From Hoeflea sp. (GTDB lineage: Bacteria > Pseudomonadota > Alphaproteobacteria > Rhizobiales > Rhizobiaceae), in assembly GCF_030682515.1 (NCBI RefSeq), contig NZ_JAUXOD010000070.1, forward strand, positions 1 through 56,529: DNA of 56,529 bases, in the 5' to 3' direction. The translations under genes and the position numbers were made by a program. How positions within the stretch are numbered: the stretch's first letter is position 1; every line of letters starts with the position of its first letter. Shown piece after piece: positions 15,808 through 21,140 of this stretch. A model generated the notes under the pieces. The model did no database searches, was not told where the DNA came from, and worked only from the letters and a program-made list of their open reading frames with translations.

Positions 15808-15883
15808 GCCGCTTTAGCTCAGGTGGTAGAGCACATCATTCGTAATGATGGGGTCGCAGGTTCGAGTCCTGCAAGCGGCACCA
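15808..15883 (+). tRNA. tRNA-Thr (anticodon CGT)
   Basis: A full cloverleaf can be drawn: acceptor GCCGCTT with AAGCGGC, D arm GCTC...GAGC, anticodon stem CATCA with TGATG around loop TTCGTAA (anticodon CGT), T arm GCAGG-TTCGAGT-CCTGC, discriminator A at 15880 and an encoded CCA at 15881-15883. CGT reads the Thr codon ACG. Confidence 0.95.
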
Positions 15884-15903: not shown

Positions 15904-17073
15904 CTACACTCCCGCCCCCTCGCTCAAGATGTCGAGATAGGCGCTGTAGGCAAACACGCGTCCGCGCTTGCGACCGGTGATCTCTTTGACGATCCCAAGC
16001 ACTTGAAGCTGAGCCAGGGCCGCATTGACGGTCGGCATAGTCAGCGTGGTTTTTTCCGCCACGGCAACGGCGGTCAGGAACGGGCGGGTTCGCATCAGGT
16101 CGTGGACCTTCAGGACGGAGGCCGTGCGGTTGGCTTCCGCGACGATGCGCTCGCGATCTGCAGCCAAGAGGGTGGCGATCCGGTGGGCGGTGTCGAAGGC
16201 TTGATTGGCGGTTTCGGCAGTGCCGTCGAGGAAGAATTCAAGCCAGGCTTCCCAGGCCCCGCGCTCGCGCACTTCCTGCAAGAGACGATAATAGTCGGCG
16301 CGGTGCGTCTTGAAATAGAGCGATAGATAGAGCAAAGGCTGCCGCAGAACGCCTTCAGTACAGAGGAAAAGCGTGATCAGCAGGCGGCCGAGCCTGCCGT
16401 TGCCATCCAGAAAGGGATTGATCGTCTCGAACTGGACATGCAGCAAGCCCGCCTTGATGAGCGGCGGAATCCCCGGCGTTTCCGCATGCGCGAAGCGTTC
16501 CCACTCGCCGAGGCAGTTCATGACCTCGTTGGGGGGAGGAGGAACGAACATCGCGTTGCCGGGACGCGTGCCGCCGATCCAGTTTTGCGAGCTGCGGAAT
16601 TCACCGGGATTCTGCGTTGCCCCGCGCCCGCTGTCGAGCAACCTGCCGTGCATCTCCCGGATGAGGCGCAGCGAAATCGGTAGTTCGGGCATGCGTTCCA
16701 GGCCGTACATCATCGCATCGACATAGTTGGAGACTTCTCGGACATCGTCCAGGGGCTTGCCGGTCACGGCTTCGGTTTCAAACCGTAGCAGATCGGACAG
16801 GGTCGATTGCGTGCCTTCGATCTGCGAGGACAGAACCGCTTCCTTGCGCACATACATATAGAGGAAGAGTTCCTTGTTGGGCAGGAGGATGGACACGCCG
16901 TCAAGCCGTCCTAGCGCACGCTCCGCCGCGCTCAAGCGGGTCAGCAGTTGTGACATATCGATCGGCGGCTCCGGCGGCAAAGGTGGCGGAACGAAGGCTC
17001 TCACGCGCTCCCCGGCAACAGCCGTTTCGACTGACAGGCCTAGGCGTCCGTCAAAGCTCGAAGTCTGAGGCAC
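15904..17073 (-). CDS. Fic-domain protein with C-terminal winged helix, catalytic His replaced by Asn
   Basis: A 389-residue Fic protein. Fic enzymes usually attach AMP to target hydroxyls using the motif HPFxDGNGRxxR. Here the motif is HVQFETINPFLDGNGRLGR, with N219 where the catalytic His is expected; the ATP-binding GNGR part is intact. The N-terminal autoinhibitory helix motif S/TxxxE(G/N) is present (S82-E86-G87, in LSSQIEGTQST), making it a class II architecture. Residues 315-380 form a winged-helix-like DNA-binding segment (LTMPTVNAALAQLQVLGIVKEITGRKRGRVF), common in this subgroup. The gene follows a tRNA-Thr gene tail to tail, but no integrase or attachment repeat is seen. Lower GC than its neighbours hints at transfer. 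Fic fold is certain; enzymatic activity is doubtful. Confidence 0.9.
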   Translation of the reverse strand: MPQTSSFDGRLGLSVETAVAGERVRAFVPPPLPPEPPIDMSQLLTRLSAAERALGRLDGVSILLPNKELFLYMYVRKEAVLSSQIEGTQSTLSDLLRFETEAVTGKPLDDVREVSNYVDAMMYGLERMPELPISLRLIREMHGRLLDSGRGATQNPGEFRSSQNWIGGTRPGNAMFVPPPPNEVMNCLGEWERFAHAETPGIPPLIKAGLLHVQFETINPFLDGNGRLGRLLITLFLCTEGVLRQPLLYLSLYFKTHRADYYRLLQEVRERGAWEAWLEFFLDGTAETANQAFDTAHRIATLLAADRERIVAEANRTASVLKVHDLMRTRPFLTAVAVAEKTTLTMPTVNAALAQLQVLGIVKEITGRKRGRVFAYSAYLDILSEGAGV

Positions 17074-17434: not shown

Positions 17435-18547
17435 ATGAGGCTCGACCGGTCCCTGTCGCTGATCTCGGCGTCGCTGATCGCGGGCATCCTGCTGGCAGGC
17501 GGCCTCGTGACGCTGGCGGGCCAGCGCGCGCTGCTCAGGGATGCCCAGACGATCCAGATCGAGGATGCGTCGACGGTGCTGTCCACGGTGATGGAGCAGG
17601 CGGCGACGCTGTCGGCGACCCATTCCGAGGCGATCGGCGCCGACGCGGACATCGCCGGCCTGATGACTTCGGGCGACCGCGCCGCGCTGCTCGCCCACGC
17701 GGCGCCGCTGTTGGCGCGGCTCGATGCCGGCGGCGGCATCAATGTCCTGCATTTCCACACACCCGACATGACCTCGTTCCTGAGGGTCTGGGAGCCCGAC
17801 AATTTCGGCCAGGATCTGTCGACGTTCCGCCCGATGGTCGTGGCGGTCAACCGGGACCGGCGCACGCGCAAGGGGCTGGAGCTCGGCCTCAAGGGCCTGT
17901 CGCTGCGCGCGGTCTCGGCGATCGAGACACCGCGGGGCCTCGCCGGCACGGTGGAGATCGGCGTCGACCTGACCGCGCTGCTGCACCTTGCCAAGGCTGC
18001 CACCGGGGCCGACTACGCGCTGTTCCTCGATCCCGCGGCCGCCGTGCGGCAGGACGGCACGCGGCTTGACGGCAAGGCCGGCCTCGCCCTGGAAGCGGCC
18101 ACCGAAGCCGCCTTCTTCGGCACATTGCAGCAGGCAAGCGCCATTGAGCTGTCGCGCGCGCCCAAGTTCACCACCTACAAGACCGAGGGCCGGATCTTCG
18201 GGGTAATGGGCCGGCCGCTGCTCGACTACAGTGGCAATCTGATCGGGACGATCGTCATCGCCCGCGATTTCACCAGCCTCGAAAGCCACCTGTCCCGCGC
18301 CTTCGTCACGCTGGCCGTCATCTCCATCTGCGGCTTCCTGATCGCCTTCCCGCTATTCATGAGCGCGATCCGCGCTTTCGTCATCCGCCCGCTTGGCGAC
18401 CTGGCGGCTTCTTGCGCGATGGACGCCGGAGCCGTTGCGCCGCCGCCTTCAAGCCGGCTGCGCGACTATCTCGACCTGCGCGCGGGCATCGAGCGCCTGC
18501 GGGCGGGGCAGGACGCAGCGGCCGGGGACCGGGGCGAGGCGCCATGA
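17435..18547 (+). CDS. Double-Cache sensor protein without an output domain
   Basis: A 370-residue inner-membrane sensor. Residues 7-29 form the first membrane helix, about 30-287 a periplasmic double-Cache domain, about 289-312 a second helix. A short cytoplasmic tail follows, beginning AFVIRPLGDLAA like the first turn of a HAMP linker and stopping at 370 with no histidine kinase, methyl-accepting or cyclase domain. The Cache signature is clear at residues 103-160 (VLHFHTPDMTSFLRVWEPDN, then FRPMVVAVNRDRRTRKGLELG), which matches the dCache_3 pattern, and at RGLAGTVEIGVDL. Such domains bind small metabolites such as amines, carboxylates or amino acids. The stop codon overlaps the start of the ion-channel gene in an ATGA, so the two products are probably made in step. 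Coupling to the channel is inference. Confidence 0.85.
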   Translation: MRLDRSLSLISASLIAGILLAGGLVTLAGQRALLRDAQTIQIEDASTVLSTVMEQAATLSATHSEAIGADADIAGLMTSGDRAALLAHAAPLLARLDAGGGINVLHFHTPDMTSFLRVWEPDNFGQDLSTFRPMVVAVNRDRRTRKGLELGLKGLSLRAVSAIETPRGLAGTVEIGVDLTALLHLAKAATGADYALFLDPAAAVRQDGTRLDGKAGLALEAATEAAFFGTLQQASAIELSRAPKFTTYKTEGRIFGVMGRPLLDYSGNLIGTIVIARDFTSLESHLSRAFVTLAVISICGFLIAFPLFMSAIRAFVIRPLGDLAASCAMDAGAVAPPPSSRLRDYLDLRAGIERLRAGQDAAAGDRGEAP

Positions 18548-19605
18548 GGCGGATCTGGCTGCGCGCCCTGTGGATCGCCTGCCTGCTGCTTGCCGCGCTT
18601 CCTGCCGCGCCGGGCGCGGCCGGCGAGGCGCTGCCGCAGGCCATGCATCTGCCGGCGCGCGTGCATCTCGCCGTGCGCATCCTCGATGTCTCGGGGGTGG
18701 ACGAGACCTCCGGCATGACCTCCGCCGTGGTCGAGGTGACCCAGCGCTGGAACGATCCGTCCGAGCGGTTTGACCGGGTACGCGAAGGCGCGGGCCGCAA
18801 GGATTTTACCGAAACGGCGGCAACCGACAGGCTTGCGACGATGTGGACCCCGGCGGTCGGCCTCGAGAACCAGATCAGCGACGCCCGCGCCGATGCCACG
18901 TCGCTCTCGATCTTCGCCAATGGCGACGTGATGCTATTGCGCACGCTCGATGCAGACTTCCGCACGACAATCGCGCTCTCCGCCTTTCCGTTCGACACCC
19001 AGCGGCTTGTCTTCCCGATCGCGTCCCACATGCACGCCGCCGACGAGGTCATCTTCATCGTCGATGAGCGGGACCGCGAGCTCTCGTCGCTGGCCCACAG
19101 CCTCACCGATTCCGACTGGATGCCGCGCCGGCTCGAATTCGCGCTGGCGCAGTTCTACGGCTGGAATTCCAAGCCGTTCATGCGCGTGGAGGCGACGGCC
19201 GTGCTCAGCCGCGCCTGGCCGCGCTACGTGCTGCGGATCTTCGTTCCGCTCGTCGCGGTCCTGAGCATATCGCTGTTCGTGCTGTGGGCGCCGCGCGGCT
19301 TTGTCGGCGACATTCCGGGGATCACCTACGCCGCCCTGCTGGCGCTCGCCGCATTGAGCTTCACCTTCGAGGGCAATTTTCCGGGCAGCATGTCGGTGAA
19401 TTCGCCGATCGCCTTCATGATCTCGCTCGGCTATTTCTATCTCATCCTGGCGCTGATGGCCGATCTCCTGCTGGAGAGCGACCGGTTTTCCGCCAAGGCC
19501 GCCTATCCCTATCTGGTCCAGGAAGCACGGCGGTCGATCCGCTACGTGCTGCCGGGCATTTTCACGGTGATCAGTGTGGGAACCATCCTGAGGGCACTTG
19601 CATGA
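18544..19605 (+). CDS. Prokaryotic pentameric ligand-gated ion channel (Cys-loop receptor family)
   Basis: A 353-residue channel subunit of the GLIC/ELIC type. A signal peptide (about 1-26) leads a periplasmic beta-sandwich domain (35-225) with ATMWTPAVGLENQ (99-110, loop A-like) and LSAFPFDTQRLVFPIAS (145-161), the conserved Pro-loop; the two loop cysteines of animal receptors are absent, as usual in bacteria. Four membrane helices follow: M1 from RYVLRIFVPLVAVLSISLFVLW (227-248), M2 about 257-276, M3 about 285-310, M4 334-351. The M2 end FEGNFPGS aligns with VETNLPKT of GLIC and puts D256 at or next to position -1', which favours cation selectivity. It overlaps the preceding and following genes by four bases each. 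The ligand cannot be read from sequence. Confidence 0.88.
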   Translation: MRRIWLRALWIACLLLAALPAAPGAAGEALPQAMHLPARVHLAVRILDVSGVDETSGMTSAVVEVTQRWNDPSERFDRVREGAGRKDFTETAATDRLATMWTPAVGLENQISDARADATSLSIFANGDVMLLRTLDADFRTTIALSAFPFDTQRLVFPIASHMHAADEVIFIVDERDRELSSLAHSLTDSDWMPRRLEFALAQFYGWNSKPFMRVEATAVLSRAWPRYVLRIFVPLVAVLSISLFVLWAPRGFVGDIPGITYAALLALAALSFTFEGNFPGSMSVNSPIAFMISLGYFYLILALMADLLLESDRFSAKAAYPYLVQEARRSIRYVLPGIFTVISVGTILRALA

Positions 19606-20177
19606 TCCGTCTGGCCTGTCCTCCCCAAGCATGGCGATTGCGGTGCGTGGCGATCCTCGCAGGCCTGCTCGCGGCGCCGATGGCCCAGGCGGTGCCGCGC
19701 TGCGAGATGGCCGCGATCGCCCATTGCGCCAACGCCAGCCAGTTGCTCCGGGCGCCCGGCTTCGAGGAAGCTCTCGGCAGGGTCCTCGACGGCAGGCAGG
19801 TCACCTGGCTCGCCCGGCAGCGCGGCGTGGGCGATGTCGTGCGCGAGGTTCTGAGCGGAGCGCCGGATGACGCGACCCAAGTCGCGCATGGGCTGCTGCG
19901 GTTTTCGGCCGTCCGGGCAGGGAGTGCGACGGAGAGGGGCGCGATCTTCGTTTCCGGCGACGGGACGATCGCGGCGATCGGCGTCCTGCATTTCAACTGC
20001 GCCAAACGCTGCGACAAGACCTATTCGCTGTCGATCCTGGTCAACCACGACGATGCAAGGCCGGTCGCCCTGGTTCGGGCCTGGGGCGCCGAGCAGATGG
20101 CGCTCAACCGGGAGCGCGGCTTTGAGGAGGACCTCGCCGTGATCGCCCGCGTCGAGGTGCTGACGCGCCAAGACTGA
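19602..20177 (+). CDS. Small secreted protein, possibly Ivy-like (lysozyme inhibitor fold)
   Basis: A 191-residue exported protein, third gene of the Cache/ion-channel operon; its ATG overlaps the channel stop codon (ATGA). A signal peptide ending near PMAQAVPRC is clear. The mature part has four cysteines: two near the N-terminus (RCEMAAIAHC) and two in FNCAKRCDKTYSLSILV. The layout FEEALGRVLDGRQVTWLARQ followed by a C-x3-C turn and a beta strand recalls the Ivy family, in which a CxxxxC loop plugs the lysozyme active site, but the match is loose. It could equally be a periplasmic partner that binds the channel or its ligand. I would call it a periplasmic protein of unknown function with weak Ivy resemblance. 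Confidence 0.5.
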   Translation: MIRLACPPQAWRLRCVAILAGLLAAPMAQAVPRCEMAAIAHCANASQLLRAPGFEEALGRVLDGRQVTWLARQRGVGDVVREVLSGAPDDATQVAHGLLRFSAVRAGSATERGAIFVSGDGTIAAIGVLHFNCAKRCDKTYSLSILVNHDDARPVALVRAWGAEQMALNRERGFEEDLAVIARVEVLTRQD

Positions 20178-20210: not shown

Positions 20211-21140
20211 TTAGCCCGCGTGTACCAAAGCGGCGACGGTCCCGGCCTCGAGGCGGGCCTGCGCCTGGTCAAAGGCCCTGGCGATCGCCTCGAACTTGAG
20301 CGACTGCCACAGGCAGTAGTCCTGCACGAGCTCCGGGGAGACGAAGAGGTCGCCGCGATTGCCCGCCAGGCCCCAGACGAGCAGCCCCTCGGTTCTCGCC
20401 CGCGCAAACATGCGCTGCACATGGCCACGCGACAGGGTGTGCCGCGTCGAGATCTCGCTGGCATGGACCTGGCCGAGGCAGACCGGCTGGCCGGGGCCTG
20501 GCGGCCCGGCCGGCAGACGGCAGATCAGGTCATGCAGGATGTTGCTTCCGGTTTCGGTGCGCACGAACAGATCGACGCTTGGAGGCGGATGGACCCACCG
20601 GGGATCGAAGGCGAGGCTGCGGGCGGCGAGCGGCTGGATGATGCCAGCGAGACGCTTGTCGCGCGCCATGCACGCGGCCCTGCAGCCGCCGTCGAGCCGG
20701 TCCAGCGCCGAAAGATGGGCCTCGAGCCATTGGCCGATCAGCTCCTCGCTGCCCGTGCTCAGGCGCAAGGGCCGCGAGCGCCGGTCGCCGCCCGCAACAT
20801 CGACCAGCAGCCCGTAGGCACGCATCTCGGCCAGGTGGGCGATCAACGTGTTCTTGCTGAAGGGTTGATGGTACCCGAAGAAGCCCACGAGCGATGTCCC
20901 CGTCAATGGCGGCCGCGTCGCGTCGCCTGCCCTTTCGAAATGCAGCGCGATGATTGCCTGGGTGATCAGCCATTTCTGCATGCTGGCCAGGTAGCGCACC
21001 ACCCGGGGGGCGCTGTCGTGCATGGCGAGCAGATGCTGGGCGGCGTCGCGCAGGACGGCCAGGAAAGCGGGATTGTCGCCGAGCGCCAGGAAACCTGGCC
21101 CGCCCGCGGCCATGGGCCCGGTTTCGGGTGACTGCCTCAT
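20211..21140 (-). CDS. Putative transcriptional regulator with two winged-helix-like segments
   Basis: Not assigned to a named family. The 309-residue product has a helix-turn-helix-like region at about 60-115 (KWLITQAIIALHFERAG, then GYHQPFSKNTLIAHLAEMRA), MarR-like in pattern. A second region at about 220-260 (VHASEISTRHTLSRGHVQRM followed by FARARTEGLL) looks like another recognition helix. No membrane segment or enzyme motif is seen. It converges on the Cache/ion-channel operon, 33 bases from the end of its last gene. Arg- and His-rich, high GC. The start could also be the ATG ten codons further in. The function as DNA-binding protein is inferred from these patterns only. Confidence 0.55.
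   Translation of the reverse strand: MRQSPETGPMAAGGPGFLALGDNPAFLAVLRDAAQHLLAMHDSAPRVVRYLASMQKWLITQAIIALHFERAGDATRPPLTGTSLVGFFGYHQPFSKNTLIAHLAEMRAYGLLVDVAGGDRRSRPLRLSTGSEELIGQWLEAHLSALDRLDGGCRAACMARDKRLAGIIQPLAARSLAFDPRWVHPPPSVDLFVRTETGSNILHDLICRLPAGPPGPGQPVCLGQVHASEISTRHTLSRGHVQRMFARARTEGLLVWGLAGNRGDLFVSPELVQDYCLWQSLKFEAIARAFDQAQARLEAGTVAALVHAG

Follow-up and report, generated by a model that had tools for sequence, protein, structure and literature searches.

To our knowledge, the roles and natural ligands of bacterial pentameric ligand-gated ion channels (pLGICs) are largely open. Uncertainty over role and ligand was voiced for ELIC (PMC3119659). Among the closest known systems is a stand-alone Cache gene of Rhodopseudomonas, which Tasneem et al. 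in 2004 assigned to the same predicted operon as a pLGIC gene (PMC549065); they suggested functional cooperation of the two products and a chemotactic role, and also reported Cache domains fused to pLGICs. Here we describe a split pair of this kind in a 56,529-nucleotide stretch of Hoeflea sp. DNA (contig NZ_JAUXOD010000070.1; this whole stretch is called the window), in which a gene for a double-Cache sensor protein (gene 1) is followed by a pLGIC gene (gene 2) and by a third, small gene (gene 3). The initial annotation knew of no such split arrangement as a described system, a view superseded by the 2004 paper, where it already appears. The split arrangement is known as a prediction; what we add is the strict pairing of the two genes, their co-inheritance and the kinship of the sensor with methyl-accepting chemotaxis proteins (MCPs).

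Our search of the open-access literature brought up no experimental work on a pair of this kind, most subscription papers lying outside this scope. The main text of a later pLGIC inventory (PMC4795631) uses none of the words Cache, operon and chemotaxis. Table 1 of the 2016 Cache census (PMC4822843, available part) lists no ion channel for its 883 dCache_3 proteins; as we read it, only domains that share a single protein are counted there.

Conservation of the Cache/channel pair

Three open reading frames (ORFs) on the plus strand, 17435-18547, 18544-19605 and 19602-20177, each overlap the next by the bases ATGA (18544-18547 between genes 1 and 2, 19602-19605 between genes 2 and 3; both + strand), exactly where the initial annotation had placed them. 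Gene 1 (17435-18547, + strand) encodes 370 amino acids (aa), of which residues 43-280 match Pfam dCache_3 (PF14827; 83.5 bits against a cut-off of 25.7). Pfam at E ≤ 1 gave no HAMP, MCPsignal or other output domain, the sole other match being PAS_4 below its cut-off. The AlphaFold2 (AF2) model (predicted local distance difference test, pLDDT, 92.5) runs from a helix at residues 2-68 through a double Cache to a helix at residues 280-328. Pfam and model thus agree with the annotated double-Cache protein with two membrane helices and no output domain.

Gene 2 (18544-19605, + strand; 353 aa) matches Pfam Neur_chan_LBD (PF02931; 48.4 bits, cut-off 26); the Pfam membrane-domain model PF02932 gave no match. 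Its AF2 model (pLDDT 88.2) has ten strands followed by four helices (residues 226-248, 251-278, 288-311 and 322-352) and matches by fold structures of glycine and GABA-A receptors, DeCLIC, GLIC and ELIC (E from 1.6e-21 to about 3e-20). PDB sequence matches were to glycine receptor beta and GLIC (8e-10) and to DeCLIC (2e-8). Residues 148-151 read FPFD, which we take to be the pro-loop motif of the pLGIC (Cys-loop/pro-loop) family; P149 and D151 are kept in 35/35 aligned rows and F150 in at least 90%. The ligand-binding-domain match, the modelled helices and the fold matches concur on the annotated Cys-loop-type channel with four membrane helices, and the product is predicted to form a pentamer and to carry a gated current.

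Channel relatives were collected in a scan of genome contigs (9 loci) and in searches of 101 relatives and of 385 class, 397 order and 398 phylum genomes, samples that overlap. The class search used a single sequence at E ≤ 1e-10; in profile searches the best candidates of each genome, five at most, were scored. A profile of 12 channels split the loci into those at 144-602 bits and those at 92 bits or less. The high-scoring group comprises 21 distinct loci, L021 and L022 being repeats of L014 and L003 and later locus numbers standing again for loci already counted. At all 21 distinct loci found for this clade a Cache gene lies directly upstream of the channel gene on the same strand. The initial annotation had allowed that the pairing would be chance if homologous channels lacked a Cache neighbour; such an absence was not seen in this clade. 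At 17 of the 21 loci the stop of the Cache gene shares 4 bases or 1 base (ATGA, GTGA or TGATG) with a possible start of the channel gene, and because the overlap recurs in relatives, the one between genes 1 and 2 is not due to chance. The four loci without such overlap are L017 (start unclear, lying either 41 bases within the Cache gene or 34 past it), L018 (gap of 4), L094/L028 (gap of 16 with a TTG start) and L096 (overlapping ORFs, start not fixed).

The reverse search, run with a profile of 12 Caches over the 397 order genomes, gave 11 Caches of at least 184 bits (frames of up to 659 aa, listed ORFs of 330-456 aa). They stand side by side with the 11 clade channels of these genomes, in the same 10 genomes, and no such Cache was found there without a channel. 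Three short-frame matches considered as orphan Caches (G074:C402, G790:C345 and G735:C70) are located at contig ends and count neither way. Distant pLGICs were represented by 30 loci, 23 after removal of two repeats and 7 more from the phylum search, with L080, L083 and L084 outside the Cache scans. A Cache of this family occurred within 1.5 kb at 0/23 low-scoring loci and in wider flanks at 0/20 (usually 3-5 kb; the shortest, one flank of L113, was 168 bases). Since none of the 23 distant loci has such a Cache, the pairing is a trait of one clade and not of pLGICs at large.

At least one genome outside the class carries the pair (G860, locus L096). Its spread is patchy, with the channel in 2/18 genomes of the window's genus, and a tblastn search of a plasmid collection at 1e-10 gave no match. 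One genome, G506, holds two diverged Cache/channel pairs, L088 and L089, about 160 kb apart, so a genome can hold the complete unit twice. Judged by gene order in these genomes, the pair is inseparable so far as searched; it occurs in several families and also outside the class.

Both partners also group by descent. The 21 channels form a clade with support 100/100 against 14 other pLGICs, and 20 linked Caches form one with support 100/100 against 9 outside relatives. The channel tree holds 14 of the 30 distant pLGICs, fused, partial and near-duplicate ones being left out, and the Cache of L092 (312 bits) was left out of the Cache tree, hence 20 Caches for 21 channels. In both trees, which are midpoint-rooted, L095/L096 split first and then L089 on a long branch. 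Most later groups are shared; the order of L003/L088 versus L019/L091-L094 differs, with lower support. The two pairs of G506 behave alike for both genes, L088 having L003 as its nearest kin and L089 being remote. Pairwise distances of channels and Caches correlate at 0.82, with 0 of 10000 permutations as high, a comparison in which the permutation keeps shared species history and related sequences are not independent observations. By these sequence trees, channel and Cache are co-inherited.

Sensor kinship and possible mode of action

Beyond the linked Caches, the next matches in the order search scored 171 bits and less and lay mostly in frames of 600-800 aa. Nine outside relatives were taken and six of them scanned with Pfam; all six carry dCache_3 and MCPsignal, and five have a HAMP match. 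By domain content, the nearest outside relatives identified are chemoreceptors. The initial annotation had envisaged a sensor-to-flux pathway without kinase or chemoreceptor. The main idea of that annotation is strongly backed by the genome comparisons, and the sensor-to-flux unit remains the simplest reading, but the chemoreceptor returns as the nearest scanned kin of the Cache. Because the trees are midpoint-rooted, we can only infer the direction of descent, which likely ran from an MCP to the Cache partner.

CheW was present in 12/12 pair-bearing genomes tested versus 70/91 order genomes and flagellin in 11/12 versus 62/91, both backgrounds including three pair genomes; G606 has the pair and no flagellin match. 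Chemotaxis as the pathway served was set aside, CheW and flagellin being too common in the order to discriminate and G606 lacking a flagellin match. The MCP kinship and the presence of CheW in every pair-bearing genome tested would also suit a truncated Cache that acts as a decoy in chemoreceptor dimers or arrays, the channel being merely co-expressed. We regard such a decoy as very improbable: CheW is widespread in the order anyway, the linked Caches form a clade of their own, four of them retain only 8-11 residues past the second helix, and the order search found no such Cache apart from a channel.

These short tails bear on where a signal could go. MCPs signal through their second helix. 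In the window Cache the second membrane helix (residues 290-308 by hydropathy; 18302-18358, + strand) contains G300, a glycine shared by 18/20 linked Caches versus 1/9 outside relatives. The first membrane helix (about residues 8-30, limits set by inspection; 17456-17524, + strand) is the hydrophobic start of model helix 2-68. Past the second helix the window Cache has a tail of 62 residues; the tail measures 8-11 residues in L019, L091, L093 and L094 and therefore leaves no room there for a cytosolic signalling domain, so that any output of these four would have to pass via membrane or periplasm.

Ten residues of the membrane-distal Cache module (about residues 100-178, limits set by inspection; 17732-17968, + strand) are invariant in 20/20 channel-linked Caches, namely R117, P121, D127, R132, G147, E149, G154, G171, E174 and G176. 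All ten are also invariant in the 9/9 outside relatives, six of which are shown MCPs. Because of this shared invariance the sensing module of the linked Caches seems intact. This conservation bears on an explanation in which the Cache would be devoted to assembling or trafficking the channel, its sensing lost or secondary. Constant pairing and overlapping genes fit any stoichiometric partner, and strict adjacency therefore speaks for shared function and not for contact. Nevertheless, with the ten distal residues unchanged from the outside Caches and the sensing pocket seemingly kept, an assembly factor appears quite unlikely.

By fold the Cache matches DctB, a succinate- and malonate-binding sensor, and CitA, as well as amino-acid, uric-acid and other receptors; because of this breadth we can only guess at an anionic ligand, on the strength of three arginines of the distal module, R117, R132 and R158 (the last in 18/20 linked Caches). 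We tentatively picture a small, perhaps anionic ligand. Used by itself as a sequence query against the PDB, the window Cache gave no match at E ≤ 0.1. PDB matches to HAMP and, weakly, to CitA from one Cache profile were set aside, the profile having held MCP rows and one wrong-frame row.

Channels of the clade carry marks of their own. The loop C tip G206-W207 (19159-19164, + strand), in the turn between strands 192-205 and 211-223, is present in 21/21 Cache-linked channels versus 0/14 other aligned pLGICs. In the pore helix M2 (residues 256-276; 19309-19371, + strand) A267, presumably position 10', is alanine in 21/21 clade channels and threonine in 14/14 other pLGICs, and the M2-M3 stretch of the clade (PGSMSVNSP in the window) is one residue longer. 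These marks may be adaptations to the Cache partner or to another ligand. By analogy with nicotinic receptors, an acidic residue before M2 goes with cation selectivity. The window channel has D256 at this place, and on this analogy we consider cation selectivity an even bet.

The invariant G206-W207 would be expected if the channel kept a ligand of its own. This fits a scheme, put forward by Tasneem et al. for partners of this type (PMC549065), in which the Cache would trap or enrich the ligand in the periplasm and pass it on to the channel's own binding site. The Cache, however, is predicted to cross the membrane with two helices, and the closest relatives scanned are receptors and not soluble carriers, which makes hand-over unlikely in our view.

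We instead favor, as fairly probable on the sequence record, that the products of genes 1 and 2 together form a two-protein receptor in which the Cache regulates the pLGIC and ion flux is the output. Stripped of HAMP and signalling domains, the sensory half of an MCP would now be produced, as the truncated Cache, in step with a pLGIC. Its membrane-distal module would bind a small metabolite in the periplasm. As a dedicated regulatory subunit, the Cache would then alter channel opening via contacts in the membrane or periplasm, and ion flux would be the output of the unit. Functional dependence between channel and Cache is very likely; for physical gating of the channel by the Cache the balance is favorable, though less so. 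The boldest version, in which an MCP sensor without its kinase-control half is an obligate trans-acting gating subunit of the pLGIC that signals sideways through membrane or periplasm, with the GW and the M2/M2-M3 features as adaptations, is conceivable at somewhat below an even chance.

Several points weigh against the two-protein receptor, alongside the limits of the permutation given above. L090 is placed in conflicting positions by the two trees, with support in both. Strict adjacency would look no different if the Cache were an assembly factor, and a presumed Cache dimer on a channel pentamer is awkward. G300, at 18/20, is not invariant among linked Caches, and the position of D256 is non-acidic in L003, L088, L089 and L095. 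The conserved GW of loop C is retained, and the channel may bind its own ligand. Outside Cache relatives were sought in the genomes of one order only, and dCache_3 also occurs in kinases and cyclic di-GMP proteins (PMC4822843). A co-inherited sensor partner nonetheless offers a direct handle on what bacterial pLGICs do, and if the channel were gated only with both proteins, ion current would join kinases and cyclases as a Cache output.

Gene 3 and other loci

Gene 3 (19602-20177, + strand) encodes 191 aa from an in-frame ATG at 19602, a small protein that looks exported, its export signal being judged by eye only. It matched no family in Pfam (E ≤ 10) or NCBIfam (E ≤ 0.1); a reading as a lysozyme-inhibitor-like protein from its CxxxC motif was dropped for lack of any Pfam match. 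The only close relative found, 51% identical, lies in the same place at locus L012 of Pararhizobium antarcticum, where the junction with the channel gene is TGATG. Gene 3 is under selection, as nonsynonymous and synonymous divergence from L012 (dN 0.39, dS 1.11) indicate. Two further weak matches occurred among the 101 relatives (E 6e-5 and 1e-4). The initial annotation had counted gene 3 as a member of the system, which its distribution does not uphold: it is present at 2/21 clade loci (window and L012 only) and missing in G005, a genome of the window's genus with a channel 77-78% identical. From this distribution we take gene 3 to be an optional accessory outside the conserved core.

Beyond gene 3, positions 20211-21140 (- strand) encode a 309-aa protein with no Pfam match at E ≤ 1 and, by eye, two winged-helix-like parts; it is possibly a regulator. 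In G005 (L002/L086) and P. antarcticum (L012) the pair has a homologue as a neighbour, in different arrangements; no other retrieved locus has one. Upstream of the pair, 15904-17073 (- strand) encodes a Fic/DOC family protein (Fic_N and Fic). Between 15500 and 21500 the only RNA element at gathering score is a tRNA at 15808-15880.

Among the distant loci, L102 (718-8447) is an ELIC-like operon with a glutamate decarboxylase (TIGR01788; 414 bits, cut-off 380), a pLGIC, a Cache-like gene whose product weakly matches PDC/dCache_1, and a major facilitator superfamily (MFS) transporter; ATP-binding cassette (ABC) transporter genes lie upstream. L104 has a decarboxylase by Pfam and a Cache-like gene, and L103 was assigned by gene order only. 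All three belong to one family (f215) of the window's order, and their channels fall outside the Cache-linked clade. A different, weakly Cache-like gene lies downstream of the pLGIC in 2/2 low-scoring loci checked (L102 and L104). A decarboxylase beside ELIC is already described (PMC3119659); with the Cache-like neighbour, the L102 operon would add another split pairing of sensor and channel, unlike that of the window. Four pLGIC-like proteins with an N-terminal Peripla_BP_6 domain (L108:3189-5498, L113:3375-5690, L114:4601-6925 and L115:3064-5658) are of the fusion type of PMC549065. Two very divergent pLGIC-like proteins (L107:4516-5508 and L116:4502-5644) are placed together by the tree and, as aligned, lack part of the ectodomain.

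Comparison with described systems

The Rhodopseudomonas pair of a Cache protein and an ART-LGIC likewise has a separate Cache gene beside a pLGIC of simple architecture in one predicted operon; it comes from one bacterium, and the available part of the paper contains no analysis of Cache subtype, conservation or origin (PMC549065). The ELIC operon with its putative glutamate decarboxylase also hints at the ligand of a pLGIC, its partner being an enzyme (PMC3119659). A pLGIC core with an extracytoplasmic domain is found as well in DeCLIC and in pLGICs with a fused N-terminal PBP-I or MCP-N and Cache (PMC549065). Such fused-domain channels are one polypeptide, whereas the window system consists of two proteins. 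MCP chemoreceptors with dCache_3 share with the window Cache the sensor module, the invariant residues and the flanking helices, but the window Cache has no signalling domain and a channel gene stands in its place. The alpha2delta protein of animal voltage-gated calcium channels serves another channel family, has another Cache type and carries an extra von Willebrand domain. Like the Cache proposed here, it is an auxiliary partner of a channel, and it bears a Cache domain (PMC4822843; PMC549065). If our reading is true, the trans-acting Cache subunit would be an independently built bacterial counterpart of such Cache-bearing auxiliary subunits of animal channels.

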